Assembly: GCA_017549765.1 (NCBI GenBank)
Contig: JAFYNM010000026.1
Location: forward strand, 1 to 49,945
DNA from: Bacteroidales bacterium
GTDB taxonomy: Bacteria; Bacteroidota; Bacteroidia; Bacteroidales; WCHB1-69
DNA length: 49,945 bases
Direction: 5' to 3'
The notes beneath the pieces are model-generated. The model was given only the letters and a program-made list of their open reading frames with translations, did no database searches and had not been told where the DNA came from. Below, in pieces: positions 42,830 through 49,945 of this stretch; the first letter of the stretch is position 1, and each line of letters starts with the position of its first letter. A program made the translations under genes and the position numbers.

Positions 42830-42860
42830 TTTGGAGATTTCAAATATTGTAGTATTTTTG
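42830..42860 (+). promoter_or_regulatory. promoter of the tracrRNA
   Basis: TTTG (42830-42833) and TATTTTTG (42853-42860) with a 19-bp spacer, an exact match to the Bacteroidota consensus. Transcription should begin near 42866, at the first base of the anti-repeat. Confidence 0.8.
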
Positions 42861-42865
42861 CAGCA

Positions 42866-42944
42866 CATTTTAAAGCAAATCACAATAAGGATTATTCCGT
42901 TGTGAAAACATTCAGAGCGGGGATTCACATTCTCGCTCTTTTTT
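42866..42944 (+). ncRNA. tracrRNA of the type II-C CRISPR system
   Basis: About 79 nt. The anti-repeat (42866-42885) is complementary to the 5' 22 nt of the repeat as read on the minus strand (GTTGTGATTTGC onward), missing one A, so it pairs with a crRNA transcribed leftwards. The nexus region AAGGATTATTCCGTTGTG (42887-42904) follows, which I recall from Bacteroidota II-C tracrRNAs. The 3' end is a terminator hairpin with a T-run. It lies directly before cas9 with the same polarity. Confidence 0.88.
42914..42944 (+). terminator. tracrRNA terminator hairpin
   Basis: AGAGCGGGGA (42914-42923) pairs with TTCTCGCTCT (42930-42939), 10 bp with two G-U pairs, loop TTCACA, then five T. The cas9 start codon is 18 nt beyond, so read-through could supply cas9 mRNA. 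Confidence 0.9.
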
Positions 42945-42961
42945 ATGAAAACTCTCTGAAC

Positions 42962-45900
42962 ATGAAAAAAATATTAGGATTAGACTTGGGTACGAACAGC
43001 ATCGGCTGGGCGGTGGTGAATGAAGCGGAAAATGCTAATGAGAAATCATCAATTGTAAAATTAGGAGTCAGAGTAAATCCTTTGACTGTTGATGAGTTGA
43101 CTAATTTTGAAAAAGGTAAAAGTATCACCACAAATGCCGACAGAACCCTTAAGCGTAGTATGCGTAGAAATCTTCAACGCTACAAGTTGCGCCGCGAGAA
43201 TCTTATTGAAGTACTGAAAAAGCATGGCTTTATTGACGACGTAACGATTCTGTCTGAAAATGGGAATAGAACAACTTTTGAAACATATCGGTTGCGTTCT
43301 AGGGCAGCGACTGAAGAGATATCTTTGTCTGAATTTGCTCGCGTGTTGTTGATGATTAATAAAAAGCGCGGTTACAAAAGTAGCCGCAAGGCTAAAAGTG
43401 CCGAGGAAGGACAACTGATAGATGGAATGGAAGTAGCAAAGCGGCTGTATGAAGAAGGCTTAACTCCTGGACAATTATCTTTACAGTTGTTGAAGAGTGG
43501 CAAGAAGCATCTACCTGAGTTTTATCGCTCTGATTTACAGAATGAATTTGATGCTGTGTGGGATCGTCAACGACAATATTATCCCGAAAAAATGTTAGAT
43601 ACTTTGAAGGAGGAACTAAAAGATAAGAACAAATCACAATCTTGGGCGATTTGTGCAAAGCCATTCAATCTTGTTGGTATCAATAGATCAACCAAAGGAC
43701 AAGAATTGAAACTTGAGAATTACCAGTGGAGAAATGATGCCATCTACAGACAATTGGGTTTGGAAGAATTAGCCATCGTATTGCAAGAAATCAATGGACA
43801 AATCAGCAATGCTAGTGGTTATTTAGGAGACATTAGTGATCGAAGTAAGGCTCTGTATTTCAATCACCAAACTGTTGGTCAGTATCAGATGACGCAGTTG
43901 GACAAAAATCCCAATGACGGCTTGAAAAATCAGGTGTTTTACCGTCAGGATTATCTTAATGAGTTCGAAACGATATGGGAGACTCAAGCGAAGTTTCATA
44001 AGGAACTGACGCCAGAACTCAAAAAGGAGATCCGCGATATTGTCATTTTCTATCAACGACCGCTCAAGTCACAAAAAGGATTGATTTCATTCTGTGAATT
44101 TGAGAGTCGGATAGTTGAAGTTGAGGTAGATGGGAAGAAAAAAATGAAGACCGTCGGTAGCCGTGTATGTCCTAAATCATCACCATTGTATCAGGAATTT
44201 AAGATTTGGCAAGTGCTGAACAATGTGCAGGTGAGCGGTAAGGAAATGAAGAGGCGATTTTTGTATCAGGAAGAGAAAGAGCTTCTTTTTTCCGAATTGA
44301 ACTATAGGGAGAAATTGTCAAAAACAGAAGTGTTGAAGCTATTGTTCGGCAATGCAAAGGATCTGGATTTGAACTACAAAGACTTGGATGGTAACCATAC
44401 ACAAGCTGAACTTTTCAAGGCCTACCAATCCATCATTGAAATGACGGGGCATGGTGACCATAATTTTGCGAAAATGTATTCCAAAGAAATACTGTCCTTA
44501 GTAACAGAAGTCTTTGCTGGATTGGGATTTGACACTGGAATCCTGTGTTTTGATTCCTCATTAGAGGGTCAAGCTTTAGAACGCCAGCCTATGTACATGC
44601 TTTGGCATCTGCTTTACTCCTTTGAGGGCGATAATTCCAAACTTGGCAATGAGAAACTGGTAGAGAAATTGAGTGAGCAATGCGGGTTTGACAAAGAAGC
44701 CGCTACCGTGCTGGCAAATGTGGTTTTCGAGCCTGATTATGGCAGTTTAAGTGCAAAGGCAATCCGCAAAATATTACCGCATTTGAAAGATGGATTGGAA
44801 TATAGTGTGGCGTGCGAGTATGCCGGATATAGACATTCTAAATCATCTCTCACTAAGGCGGAAATTGAGCAAAAGAAACTGAAAAACAGACTTGAACTTT
44901 TGCCCCGGAACAGCTTGCGAAATCCTGTGGTGGAGAAGATTTTGAACCAGATGGTGAACGTGGTCAATGCTATTGTTGATGAGTATGGAAAACCCGATGA
45001 AATTCGCATTGAATTAGCGCGAGAATTGAAAAAATCGGCCAAGGAACGCGAAGAGATGACCAAATCTATTGATAAGTCCACTCGATTACACGAAGAATAT
45101 GTGAAAGTATTGAAAGGTGAACCATTCTTCTTGGAACATGTGAGCCGCAATGACATTATTCGCTACAAATTGTATAAAGAACTTGAATCGAATGGTTATC
45201 ACACATTGTACACCAATACATACATACCACGCGAGAAACTATTCAGCAAAGAATTTGATATTGAACATATTATCCCGCAAGCCAAACTTTTCGATGATTC
45301 TTTTTCCAACAAAACATTGGAAGCTAGACAGGCCAATTTGGATAAATATAATGCAACGGCTTTCGATTTTGTTGCAACAAAATATGGTGATGAGTATGCT
45401 GAAGGTAATTACAAGTCACGCATTGAGAAATTGTATAAGGATGGTATAATTACCAGGACTAAGCGGGACAAGTTGTTGATGCGGGAGACGGATATACCAA
45501 GTGGCTTCATCAATCGTGATTTGCGTGACTCGCAATATATCGCAAAGAAAGCTAGGGAGATTTTGGAAGAGTTGGTGCGTTTTGTGGTTCCTACAACGGG
45601 CAGCGTGACGGATCGACTTCGCGAGGACTGGCAGTTGGTGGATGTGATGCAGGAACTTAACTGGGACAAATACAATAAATTGGGACTTACAGAAGTGATT
45701 GAAGGCCGAGACGGTCAGCGCATACGACATATCAAGGACTGGACTAAACGCAATGATCACCGTCACCATGCTATGGATGCGCTCACTATAGCCTTTACCA
45801 AACGAAGTTTCATCCAATATTTGAACAACCTGAATGCTCGCGTGCAAAAAGGTGTGGATGAGTATTTCGATTTGGATATGGTGGAATTGGCGGACTTGAG

Positions 45901-48121: not shown

Positions 48122-49054
48122 ATGATAAAACGAACCCTCTGCTTTAGCAATCCCGCCTACCTCTCGCTTAAAAACGAGCAGCTGGTCATCAAACTTCCCC
48201 AGGTGGAAAAGAACGAAGATCTGCCGGAATCTTTCAAGGCAGATGCGTTAAAGACTTTACCCATAGAAGATATTGGCGTGGTGGTGCTGGATAACAAGCA
48301 GATAACCATTACTCAAGGACTGATGGAGGCGTTGCTGGACAATAATTGTGCTGTCATTACCTGCGATAAAAGCCATTTGCCAGTGGGCTTGTTGCTGCCG
48401 TTGTGTGGAAATACGGTTCAGAATGAACGTTTCCGTCATCAGTTGGATGCATCGTTGCCGCTGAAAAAGCAACTGTGGCAGCAGACCGTTCAGCAGAAAA
48501 TCCATAACCAAGCTGCTGTGCTTGCAGAGTGCAGAGATGTGCCAGTAACCAATATGATGAAGTGGGAGAAGGATGTGCGTAGTGGTGACCCTGATAATTT
48601 GGAGGGTAGGGCGGCGGTTTTCTATTGGAAGAATCTTTTTCCAAATCAACCGGATTTCACCCGAGATAGAGATGGCGTTGCTCCCAATAACATGCTGAAC
48701 TACGGCTATGCCATTCTGCGAGCGGTTGTTGCCCGTTCTTTGGTAAGTTCCGGCTTGTTGCCAACCTGGGGTATTCATCATCATAACCGCTACAATGCCT
48801 ATTGCCTGGCTGATGATATAATGGAACCTTATCGGCCTTATGTGGATGAACTGGTAGTGAACTATACCGATGAACATGGTTATGTGGAAGAGTTGACCAC
48901 GGATGTGAAGAAGGTGATGCTTTCCATTCCTGTGTTGGATGTCAAAATCAATGGTCAACGTAGTCCGCTCATGCTTGCTGCTACCCAGACAACCGCCTCT
49001 TTGGCTCGCTGTTTCAGCGGAGAGAGCCGAAAGATCATATATCCAGAAAAATGA
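48122..49054 (+). CDS. cas1: CRISPR integrase Cas1 (type II)
   Basis: 310 aa. Conserved metal-binding residues appear as Glu161 ([11 protein letters not shown]), the GIHHHNRYN cluster (His219-221) and Glu235 in [10 protein letters not shown]. The N-terminal beta-rich domain contains [17 protein letters not shown]. With Cas2 it inserts new spacers at the array. The ATG is 1 nt after the bro-N stop, and the gene overlaps cas2 by 4 nt (ATGA). No csn2 or cas4 is present, which with the gene order defines type II-C. Confidence 0.97.
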
Positions 49055-49389
49055 TTGCCGAACGTTTTAGCGAGTACCGCATCATGTGGGTCCTAGTGCT
49101 ATTTGATTTACCTACCGAGACCAAAAAAGAACGAAAAGCGTATGCCGATTTCCGCAAGAAGATTCTGAAGGACGGTTTTAATATGTTTCAGTTCAGTATT
49201 TACATGCGACATTGTGCCAGTCGTGAGAATGCAGATGTCCACATCAAAAGGGTGAAGTCGTTTTTGCCTCCGACTGGGGATATTGGTATCATGTGTATCA
49301 CAGACAAACAATTCGGAGAAATCGAGATATTTCACAGCAGAGAGAAGAAGTCGGTAGAGCAACCGTGTCAGCAACTGGAACTGTTTTAG
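49051..49389 (+). CDS. cas2: CRISPR-associated protein Cas2
   Basis: 112 aa ferredoxin-like fold. The first strand ends [16 protein letters not shown] (Asp19), then [22 protein letters not shown] and [24 protein letters not shown], as in type II Cas2. It forms the Cas1-Cas2 adaptation complex. Its start overlaps the cas1 stop (ATGA at 49051), so the pair is translationally coupled. It is the last cas gene; the array begins 110 nt downstream. Confidence 0.95.
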
Positions 49390-49481
49390 GAATGGAAAAA
49401 TTGTTGAAAAGGTTAAGTGGGAACCCCTTTATTAATCTGATTTTTTTGTTGAAATAATCGCTGTAAGTAATTGATAAACAA

Positions 49482-49517
49482 TGCAGACTGAATAACGTGT
49501 TGTTGATTCAGTCTGCA
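49482..49517 (-). repeat. inverted repeat at the cas2-proximal end of the array
   Basis: TGCAGACTGAAT (49482-49493), outside the array, is the reverse complement of ATTCAGTCTGCA (49506-49517) inside the first repeat, with a 12-nt loop. On the minus strand it forms a hairpin at the end of the last repeat, a plausible terminator for leftward crRNA transcription. Confidence 0.8.
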
Positions 49518-49945
49518 AAGATACATTTTAAAAGCAAATCACAACATGCAAGTACACAGAAGTATGTTGACAAGTGTTGTTGATTCAGTCTGCAAAGATA
49601 CATTTTAAAAGCAAATCACAACTCATCCTGCTGTCTGTCGCCGGGACATGGAGTTGTTGATTCAGTCTGCAAAGATACATTTTAAAAGCAAATCACAACT
49701 GTCGTTGTAGTTTCCGCTTATGAGCTTGGTTGTTGATTCAGTCTGCAAAGATACATTTTAAAAGCAAATCACAACCACCGGCAAGGTGAAAAGCAAAGCC
49801 CCTTGGTTGTTGATTCAGTCTGCAAAGATACATTTTAAAAGCAAATCACAACGTGCCAGATGTTGCGCACATTTGATATCTTGTTGTTGATTCAGTCTGC
49901 AAAGATACATTTTAAAAGCAAATCACAACAGGGCACAACGTACTA
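49499..49945 (-). CRISPR. type II-C CRISPR array, six repeats visible, continues past the window
   Basis: The 47-nt repeats start at 49499, 49576, 49653, 49729, 49806 and 49883 and are identical (plus strand GTTGTTGATTCAG to GCAAATCACAAC). Five complete spacers are 30, 30, 29, 30 and 30 nt, and a sixth is cut off at the window edge. On the minus strand the repeat begins GTTGTGATTTGC, typical of II-C, and pairs with the tracrRNA, so the crRNA strand is minus. Each repeat holds TATCTTTG on that strand, a Bacteroidota -7 box, in the context AAAATGTATCTTTGCAGAC. All spacers differ and I saw no match inside this window by eye. Confidence 0.98.

Follow-up and report, generated by a model that had tools for sequence, protein, structure and literature searches.

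A Bro-N gene with a hypervariable cassette recurs between cas9 and cas1 and beside other defence enzymes

Introduction

What does a gene for a Bro-N protein do between cas9 and cas1 in a type II-C CRISPR-Cas operon? We asked this of one locus (its Bro-N gene is called broN here) in a contig from a Bacteroidales bacterium, which was analysed as a single stretch of 49,945 nucleotides (the window). Few class 2 CRISPR accessory genes have been characterised. A 2025 classification considers that further ones probably await discovery, and its main text mentions no Bro-N, KilA, RhuM, DinD, antirepressor or BRO family (PMC12669027). We propose that the broN product is probably an auxiliary defence protein, and we put the chance that its variable cassette is a recognition module at even.

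Results

The operon holds broN as its sole extra gene

Four genes lie on the plus strand: cas9 (42962..47257, with the ATG at 42962 and the stop at 47255-47257; type II, 1431 aa; TIGR01865 518.6 bits, cut-off 100), broN (47290..48120; 276 aa), type II cas1 (48122..49054; 310 aa; TIGR03639 318.5 bits, cut-off 120) and cas2 (49051..49389; 112 aa; TIGR01573 75.3 bits, cut-off 24.5). Read directly from the coordinates, the spacing is 32 nt from cas9 to broN and 1 nt from broN to cas1, with a 4-nt overlap of cas1 and cas2, exactly as an earlier note on this DNA had given it. Cas9 contains the conserved stretches GLDLGTNSIGWA (6), HIIPQ (769) and HHAMDA (935), which we take to be RuvC and HNH motifs. 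Neither csn2 nor cas4 was found between cas9 and the array among the window's open reading frames or in profile searches; the locus is thus type II-C, with cas9, type II cas1 and cas2, and broN is the only additional gene within the window.

The CRISPR array (49499..49945) shows six 47-nt repeats of one repeat family, from 49499 to 49929 at a spacing of 76-77, and the window ends inside it. The 3' half of the repeat recurs at 42868-42890, followed by a T run 5' of cas9, which marks 42830..42961 (plus strand) as a probable tracrRNA region; Rfam gave no match over this stretch. From the orientation of this repeat copy, the array is probably transcribed on the minus strand. A match of Rfam sRNA_1300 over the array was discarded because it scored below the gathering cut-off. 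The earlier note had begun its operon at 42830; the operon stands, but that position precedes the start of cas9 and takes in the probable tracrRNA.

broN recurs in this slot and is patchily distributed

The earlier note had argued for a built-in operon member and suggested looking for the gene order elsewhere. The order does recur, and Bacteroides propionicigenes (L046) and B. muris (L039) are examples. In the window's family, broN fills the slot at 17 of 36 type II cas1 places (30 read as loci, the remainder by coordinates), which supports a built-in member rather than a one-off insertion. Across the order, 111 cas1 places exceeded the cut-off; of the 90 that we examined, 2 loci have it, both from the window's own genus, and 88 do not. 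That II-C loci normally hold only cas9, cas1 and cas2, as the note also had it, is right for many of them (53 of the 90 order loci), but accessory genes such as PcrIIC1 have been described (PMC12669027). Among 80 kept relatives of broN, 40 have a type II cas1 downstream, always on the same strand (40/40). The end of the broN match lies 5-79 nt from cas1 in 38 of these loci and 156 and 423 nt away in the other two, and a cas9 match lies upstream in 35 of these loci.

On a tree of 144 non-identical Cas1 rows, 43 of which have broN in the slot, the presence of broN changes 11 times, 8 of them forced by starred branches. Therefore, broN has been gained or lost repeatedly. Several observations count against a helper role: cas9 and cas1 are direct neighbours at 8 of the 30 loci read in the family, the close relatives G038, G039 and G028 lack broN despite Cas1 proteins 82-85% identical, and at least 2 of the 17 family slot copies are damaged (G366 split by a frame change, G351 truncated). 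Counted by hand, internal stops occur in 0 of 16 near-full-length family copies in the slot vs 7 of 36 elsewhere; G366 is among the 16 and G351 is a further slot copy, and therefore we draw no conclusion about healthier slot copies.

Could broN be a passenger, a mobile gene that inserts between the genes of defence operons without any advantage to them? Its patchiness on the Cas1 tree fits this, as do multiple matches per genome (up to at least 7 in the order sample and up to 8 in the family, fragments counted) and transposase-like ORFs in the same gap at 24 of 90 order loci. However, dN/dS is 0.039 for the broN flanks (27 pairs), lower than the 0.063 for Cas1 (13 pairs), from few pairs limited to dS of 0.05-1.0 (up to 1.5 for the cassette). 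This purifying selection on the flanks disfavours decay of the gene. The strand shared with cas1 in all 40 loci, the lack of any antisense slot copy among the loci classified (90 from the order, 30 from the family), and the reappearance of the gene at the equivalent position in type V-A loci (see below) also speak against a passenger, which we consider very improbable.

The protein shares a PADLOC candidate with DinD and fits the phage-antirepressor label poorly

Bro-N (PF02498) covers residues 11-106 of the broN protein at 49.1 bits, against a gathering cut-off of 25.6. The label of phage antirepressor that the earlier note attached to the gene is misleading. Relatives occur in only 4 of 50,697 phage records, each below 60% identity; the best PHROG is 15286, a family of unknown function, and antirepressor families reach at most 34.9 bits. 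We therefore rejected identity with a phage antirepressor (Ant). None of our results favours the anti-CRISPR-like role that the note also considered.

Nearly the full length of the protein (residues 2-273 of 276) matches the PADLOC model PDLC04920 at 397.2 bits, which places it in the candidate defence family PDC-S13. E. coli DinD belongs to PDC-S13 too, and matches PDLC04920 across its C-terminal half (2.2e-16). In hhalign, 66 columns of the conserved C-terminal segment of broN (47743..47943, plus strand; codons 152-218) aligned with DinD at 29% identity (E 8.5e-5). Outside the C-terminal half the homology to DinD is weak, which counts against a helper role, and the protein scores 20.8 of the 242 bits of the DinD equivalog model NF008573. 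Among Pfam hits at E 0.1 there was no PIN match, and no solved structure was related by sequence up to E = 1.

A hypervariable cassette lies between near-invariant flanks

Alignment, sliding identity and comparison of flanks with cassette showed that residues ~38-83 (codons 38-83; 47401..47538, plus strand) form a hypervariable cassette between near-invariant flanks, a feature that is new here. Across 80 of 82 aligned rows (two were dropped as too short), median identity is 0.39 in the cassette vs 0.67-0.89 in four flank segments. Of the 618 pairs whose flanks share at least 90% identity, 406 share no more than 50% in the cassette. In the II-C pair L005/L027, the end of cas9 is 93-100% identical and the start of broN 91-93%, and cassette windows fall to 38-60%. 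Past the cassette, most values are 80-96%, but identity drops to 57% at the 3' end of broN. The V-A pair L050/L054 repeats the pattern, with Cas12a 88%, flanks 98% and the cassette only 30% identical. The cassette has apparently been exchanged between operons, judging from these alignments. Mantel correlations were 0.28 between segments 1-36 and 85-130, which lie across the cassette from each other, and 0.27 between the cassette and segment 1-36; these values are nearly equal, and therefore the Mantel tests alone do not prove modular exchange. The flank tree, a quick tree like the others, has few supported branches (6 of 77 starred).

A regulator of its host operon, binding DNA through Bro-N and tuning cas expression, would account for the Bro-N domain, the weak matches to phage antirepressor families and the close spacing to cas1. 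Yet the cassette and the sequence upstream of cas9 do not vary together. Among pairs whose Cas9 proteins share at least 55% identity, the partial correlation was -0.10, and the median upstream score was 71 bits for 59 pairs with the same cassette type and 75 bits for 61 pairs with different types. We therefore rejected autoregulation through an operator upstream of cas9. In addition, the operons of broN relatives contain unrelated effectors, and we consider a regulator improbable.

The earlier note proposed a check of co-variation with cas1 and cas9. Among 33 of 43 loci, those having all four proteins, broN distances follow Cas1 (Mantel 0.35, 0/500 permutations) more than Cas9 (0.11, 23/500). 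This and the 1 nt between broN and cas1 in the window would suit an adaptation factor acting with Cas1-Cas2. However, Cas9 is shuffled anyway, with Cas9 at most 45% identical in 20 of 23 pairs whose Cas1 proteins are at least 88% identical, and therefore any correlation of broN with Cas9 is lowered. In-situ Cas9 shuffling in II-C has been described (PMC12669027). Relatives in restriction-modification (R-M) operons, and one after cas12a at L051 where no cas4 or cas1 match lies downstream, also count against an adaptation factor, the reading we find least credible. The special role in cas regulation or spacer acquisition that had been suggested is thus unsupported, because relatives sit in R-M operons and the cassette does not follow the cas9-upstream region.

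Separately, we rejected broN as a homology block (a "joint") for Cas9 swapping, since dissimilar cas9 genes alone would give breakpoints at broN starts. One pair, L017/L024, changes partner inside broN.

Relatives of broN accompany other DNA-cutting systems

In type V-A loci, broN relatives follow cas12a, at 4 of 15 PREFRAN cas1 places over the cut-off in the Treponema family. Another relative precedes cas3 in an I-C-like cas3-cas5 operon (L023). Among R-M systems, we found the type I order hsdR-broN-hsdM (L329), a relative inside a type III operon (L065) and IIG enzymes adjoining relatives at L067, L041 and L044. At L079, cas4 and cas1 lie downstream and a gene of 1166 aa directly 5' of broN; its V-A label was withdrawn, since only a 55-residue piece of Cas12a lies ~5 kb upstream, and the V-A label in one of our trees takes in this locus. 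For the neighbours, PADLOC was run on selected genes; of the 20 scanned, in two sets of ten, 5 and 4 respectively matched nothing within the limits used.

Where broN is missing, the slot may hold RhuM (PF13310; 353 bits in II-C L085, 367 bits in V-A L295), a toxin gene (PemK-like at L296, YoeB-like at L288 and L291) or nothing. Such occupants favour a back-up killer or guard, a toxin-like abortive-infection module triggered by phage sensed through the cassette or by failure of the linked immune system. RhuM has been proposed as a toxin in R-M operons (PMC3710099), and the frequent breakage of out-of-slot broN copies (the stops counted above) points the same way. However, the plus strand between cas9, broN and cas1 holds no ORF of at least 60 aa that could encode an antitoxin, the broN protein has no toxin or enzyme family above cut-off in Pfam, other profile or PADLOC searches, and a lone toxin so conserved would require its own control. 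We regard a killer or guard as rather unlikely.

Discussion

We favour the view that broN has passed between DNA-cutting immune systems as an auxiliary defence protein, and its position suggests co-expression with its host system, here cas9, cas1 and cas2. The Bro-N cassette would most likely set the target, either a protein from the invader or a sequence of DNA. An auxiliary defence protein and a recognizing cassette, taken jointly, have in our estimate slightly less than an even chance. The remaining, nearly constant part, including the DinD-like C-terminal half, would most likely perform one fixed job. E. coli DinD is SOS-induced, and is reported to act on RecA filaments and inhibit them. 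The likeliest such job may then come after cleavage, at broken DNA, by holding back RecA-type repair, so that invader DNA, once cut, would be degraded and not rescued, to the benefit of CRISPR immunity. We hold this assignment to a RecA or repair step to be unlikely as it stands.

More broadly, PDC-S13/Bro-N proteins might be plug-in specificity proteins common to Cas9, Cas12a, I-C and type I, IIG and III R-M systems, with a cassette recombined between systems in the manner of HsdS, forming one innate sensing layer that travels with adaptive and restriction immunity by way of a shared accessory slot, which separates effector from adaptation genes; this is a tentative proposal that we lean somewhat against. 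If true, a conserved cassette-bearing helper that keeps turning up next to Cas9, Cas12a and restriction enzymes would link innate and adaptive immunity through one partner, and the roles of DinD-type and RhuM-type genes in defence operons would become directly testable with well-behaved effectors.

Among known systems, DinD is in the same PADLOC candidate (models PDLC04919 and PDLC04920), with broN near full-length on PDLC04920, but the broN protein falls below the DinD equivalog cut-off. Moreover, E. coli dinD lies between yicC and yicG, away from any defence operon, whereas broN of the window is inside a Cas9 operon. A fusion of dinD to the 5' end of hsdS has been described (PMC4996451). RhuM (PDC-S05) likewise sits inside R-M operons, and here also in the II-C and V-A slot, but it belongs to another Pfam family and has, in the sources consulted, been described for R-M and not for class 2 CRISPR. 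PcrIIC1 and other ancillary class 2 genes are similarly extra, non-core genes of some II-C loci; PcrIIC1, predicted to be a PIN nuclease, is described as binding Cas9 in a complex (PMC12669027, PMC13153721), whereas the broN protein lacks a PIN match and has relatives in R-M operons as well. HsdS resembles it by analogy only, in that an exchangeable stretch for recognition is set in a constant frame; with 13 bits to the one specificity model that contains a DinD-like part, the broN protein is not an HsdS.

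The extra gene lies within a type II-C operon

The operon at the end of the window is a type II-C CRISPR-Cas9 operon. cas9 (42962-47257), cas1 (48122-49054) and cas2 (49051-49389) each had a clear HMM identity. The CRISPR array, made of 47-nt repeats, starts at 49499 and is cut by the window end. Between cas9 and cas1 lies an ORF of 276 amino acids, broN (47290-48120). Its product contains a Bro-N domain at residues 11-106 (49.1 bits against a cut-off of 25.6) and, over nearly its entire length, matched the PADLOC phage-defence candidate PDC-S13 at 397 bits. Coordinates read directly gave the spacing that an earlier note had claimed, with gaps of 32 nt and 1 nt and a 4-nt overlap.

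A short direct repeat (AGTTGTCAGTTATCAG-like, 42692-42726) separates a radical-SAM-like gene from the operon. Immediately ahead of the first array repeat (49483-49516), the sequence is inverted and complementary to a portion of the repeat (GCAGACTGAAT / ATTCAGTCTGC) and might form a hairpin at the boundary of the array. The window's own genome also carries a second Bro-N copy (L002, G000:C36:38953-39729), which is 47% identical, has two internal TAG stops and is flanked by housekeeping-like genes.

Bro-N commonly fills the slot in one family

Scanning genome contigs with the window protein yielded 265 relatives, and we retained the best 80. Most came from rumen and gut Bacteroidales, and they included Bacteroides muris, B. 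propionicigenes, a Mediterranea and a Prevotella MAG. A type II cas1 lay downstream on the same strand in 40 of the best 80, within 79 nt of the match end in 38 of these 40 loci; a cas9 match lay upstream in 35 of the 40 and was absent in the other five. Because searching with broN itself biases the result, we anchored further surveys on cas1. In 104 genomes of the window's family, 36 type II cas1 places exceeded the cut-off. We read 30 of these loci and found Bro-N in the slot between effector and adaptation genes in 16, cas9 abutting cas1 in eight, RhuM in one and an ambiguous arrangement in five. A 17th Bro-N case, about 0.4 kb ahead of cas1 (G365:C293), was judged from coordinates, and the other five of the 36 places had no PDC-S13 match listed on the same contig. 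At the level of the order, we examined 90 of 111 cas1 places over the cut-off: Bro-N was present in two, both from the window's own genus, and the remainder held a transposase-like ORF (24), an ATPase (2), nothing (53) or an ambiguous arrangement (9). The Bro-N gene, which the earlier note had read as a built-in operon member rather than a chance insertion, recurs in this slot beyond the window genome (17 of 36 family places and 2 of 90 order places). From these counts we conclude that one family commonly has the arrangement, that it is present in some other Bacteroidales, and that it is not general.

Relatives accompany other defence systems

A defence gene lay beside the relative in at least 57 of the best 80 (II-C 41, V-A 9, I-C 1, type III 2, IIG 3, methylase 1). 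This tally includes L034 as II-C by a cas9 match only, L079 as V-A, L071 as type III by cluster only and L076 as methylase, and several of the remaining relatives are cut by contig ends. A cas12a match was directly upstream in eight of the 80 (L050, L051, L054-L057, L060, L061), with V-A-kind cas4 and cas1 downstream in seven; L051 had no cas4 or cas1 match downstream. A detailed scan of L057 gave Cas12a at 2204 bits, and both Cas4 and Cas1 were of the PREFRAN (V-A) type. L079 has cas4 and cas1 downstream and an upstream gene without a family identity. Other relatives overlap the cas3 start by 4 nt in a cas3-cas5 I-C-like operon (L023), are flanked by the type III R-M genes mod and res (L065) or adjoin IIG enzymes (L041, L044, L067); on a more distant Bacteroidales branch, one is flanked by the type I R-M genes hsdR and hsdM (L329). 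PADLOC matches were absent for five of ten chosen neighbours at E 1e-8, a set in which one further neighbour, at locus L062, matched TPR and PrimPol models only, and for four of ten in a second set at E 1e-20.

We also surveyed 195 Treponema-family genomes, anchored on cas1, and found 15 PREFRAN cas1 places over the cut-off. The 1.5 kb upstream held Bro-N in four, RhuM in one, a PemK-like toxin in one and a YoeB-like toxin in two; at the others cas12a adjoined cas4 (4) or the arrangement was ambiguous (3). Of the four genomes with Bro-N, three are also represented in the best 80. Because the slot also holds RhuM and classical toxins, the main rival to the function that we favour below is that the Bro-N protein is a back-up killer or guard. 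For R-M operons, it has been proposed that RhuM acts as a toxin (available part of PMC3710099).

The slot has a range of occupants. In one II-C locus a RhuM gene (L085, 449-1504) sits between cas9 and cas1 with 4-nt overlaps at both ends, and a RhuM-family gene precedes cas4 in a V-A locus (L295, 3044-3943). YoeB-like and PemK-like type II toxin genes precede cas4 in Treponema-family V-A loci L288, L291 and L296, and V-A locus L292 has small ORFs resembling theirs. One of the five ambiguous family loci has an 80-aa DUF1016_N protein remnant before cas1 (L160, 1985-2227). The gap ORFs in 24 of the 90 order loci (L185, L190, L193, L195, L202, L204, L212 and others) are about 170-250 aa long; most have a PNHFHL motif, by which we class them as putative RAYT/Y1 transposases, and the three scanned (L185, L202, L238) had no Pfam match. 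An ATPase of 380-420 aa precedes cas1 in two II-C loci, L122 and L197 (L197 scanned), separated from cas1 in L197 by a 123-aa ORF.

Bro-N follows Cas1 more closely than Cas9

A quick tree was built from 144 non-identical Cas1 proteins, of which 43 come with Bro-N. On it, Bro-N presence required 11 changes, 8 of them forced by starred branches, compared with an average of 37 for shuffled labels. On the Bro-N tree (112 rows), the II-C label required 11 changes (5 forced) and the V-A label, with L079 counted in, 4 (2 forced). The earlier note had considered the protein coupled to cas1 and, across 33 complete loci, Bro-N distances indeed tracked Cas1 (correlation 0.35) and hardly Cas9 (0.11), with Cas2 at 0.26. 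Cas9 is heavily shuffled in these operons: of 23 pairs whose Cas1 proteins share at least 88% identity, 20 have Cas9 proteins that share at most 45%. For II-C, shuffling of Cas9 in situ has been described before (available part of PMC12669027).

A hypervariable cassette lies in a constant frame

The Bro-N alignment is conserved at residues 1-36 and 85-222, the flanks, with a 46-residue hypervariable cassette in the middle. Median identity was 0.39 in the cassette; residues 1-36 reached 0.67, and three segments further along 0.87-0.89. Cassettes sort into a small number of discrete types, with seven single-linkage groups, of which two consist of one row each. Among 618 pairs with flanks at least 90% identical, cassettes were at most 50% identical in 406. 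Cassette type changed 26 times on the flank tree, against a minimum possible of 6, but few branches of this tree were supported (6 of 77), and the flank-flank correlation across the cassette was also low (0.28). The cleanest evidence is local and comes from the pair L005 and L027, for which identity was 93-100% at the cas9 end, 91-93% at the broN start and 38-60% in the cassette, then mostly 80-96%, with a drop to 57% at the 3' end of broN. A V-A pair, L050 and L054, repeated the pattern (Cas12a 88%, flanks 98%, cassette 30%). Cassette groups also mix contexts, with group 2 containing II-C, V-A, I-C, type III R-M and unassigned rows. If systems swapped a recognition stretch with one another, such a pattern would result. 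Purifying selection on the flanks is strong: dN/dS is 0.039 there (27 pairs), compared with 0.063 for Cas1 (13 pairs) and 0.117 for the cassette within type (98 pairs).

The Bro-N domain is known for DNA binding. A constant frame around an exchangeable stretch in a domain of this kind suggests that the protein may recognise something variable. The earlier note had raised regulation of cas expression as one possible role; we saw no covariation between the cassette and the sequence upstream of cas9, and we therefore consider regulation of the cas genes less likely.

A DinD-related protein with a possible post-cleavage role

E. coli DinD is also a PDC-S13 protein, with 402 bits to a sister model. 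The PADLOC model of the window protein matched DinD at 2.2e-16 in the C-terminal half, and profile comparison aligned residues 152-218 at 29% identity (E 8.5e-5). Because the window protein falls short of the DinD equivalog cut-off, we describe it as related to DinD rather than as DinD. It is very rare in phages: 4 of 50,697 phage records had a relative, each below 60% identity, and viral contigs searched with two peptide patterns gave 29 loci.

DinD reportedly disassembles RecA filaments. Since the DinD-like half is constant, it might perform a single job useful to any DNA-cutting system, and with that reported activity in mind we favour a step after cleavage in which repair would be denied to cut invader DNA, a reading to which we give a low probability.

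Accessory genes in II-C loci, such as PcrIIC1, are an accepted idea (available parts of PMC13153721 and PMC12669027), and dinD fused with hsdS has been described (available part of PMC4996451). Among the open-licence papers listed by our searches, no title or abstract described Bro-N between cas9 and cas1, or the matching Cas12a arrangement; in the parts of papers available, "between cas9 and cas1" denotes a 12-bp gap or a tracrRNA. The family of broN is thus already a recognised defence candidate, whereas its setting in the Cas9 operon has been little described, and its cassette has apparently been exchanged.
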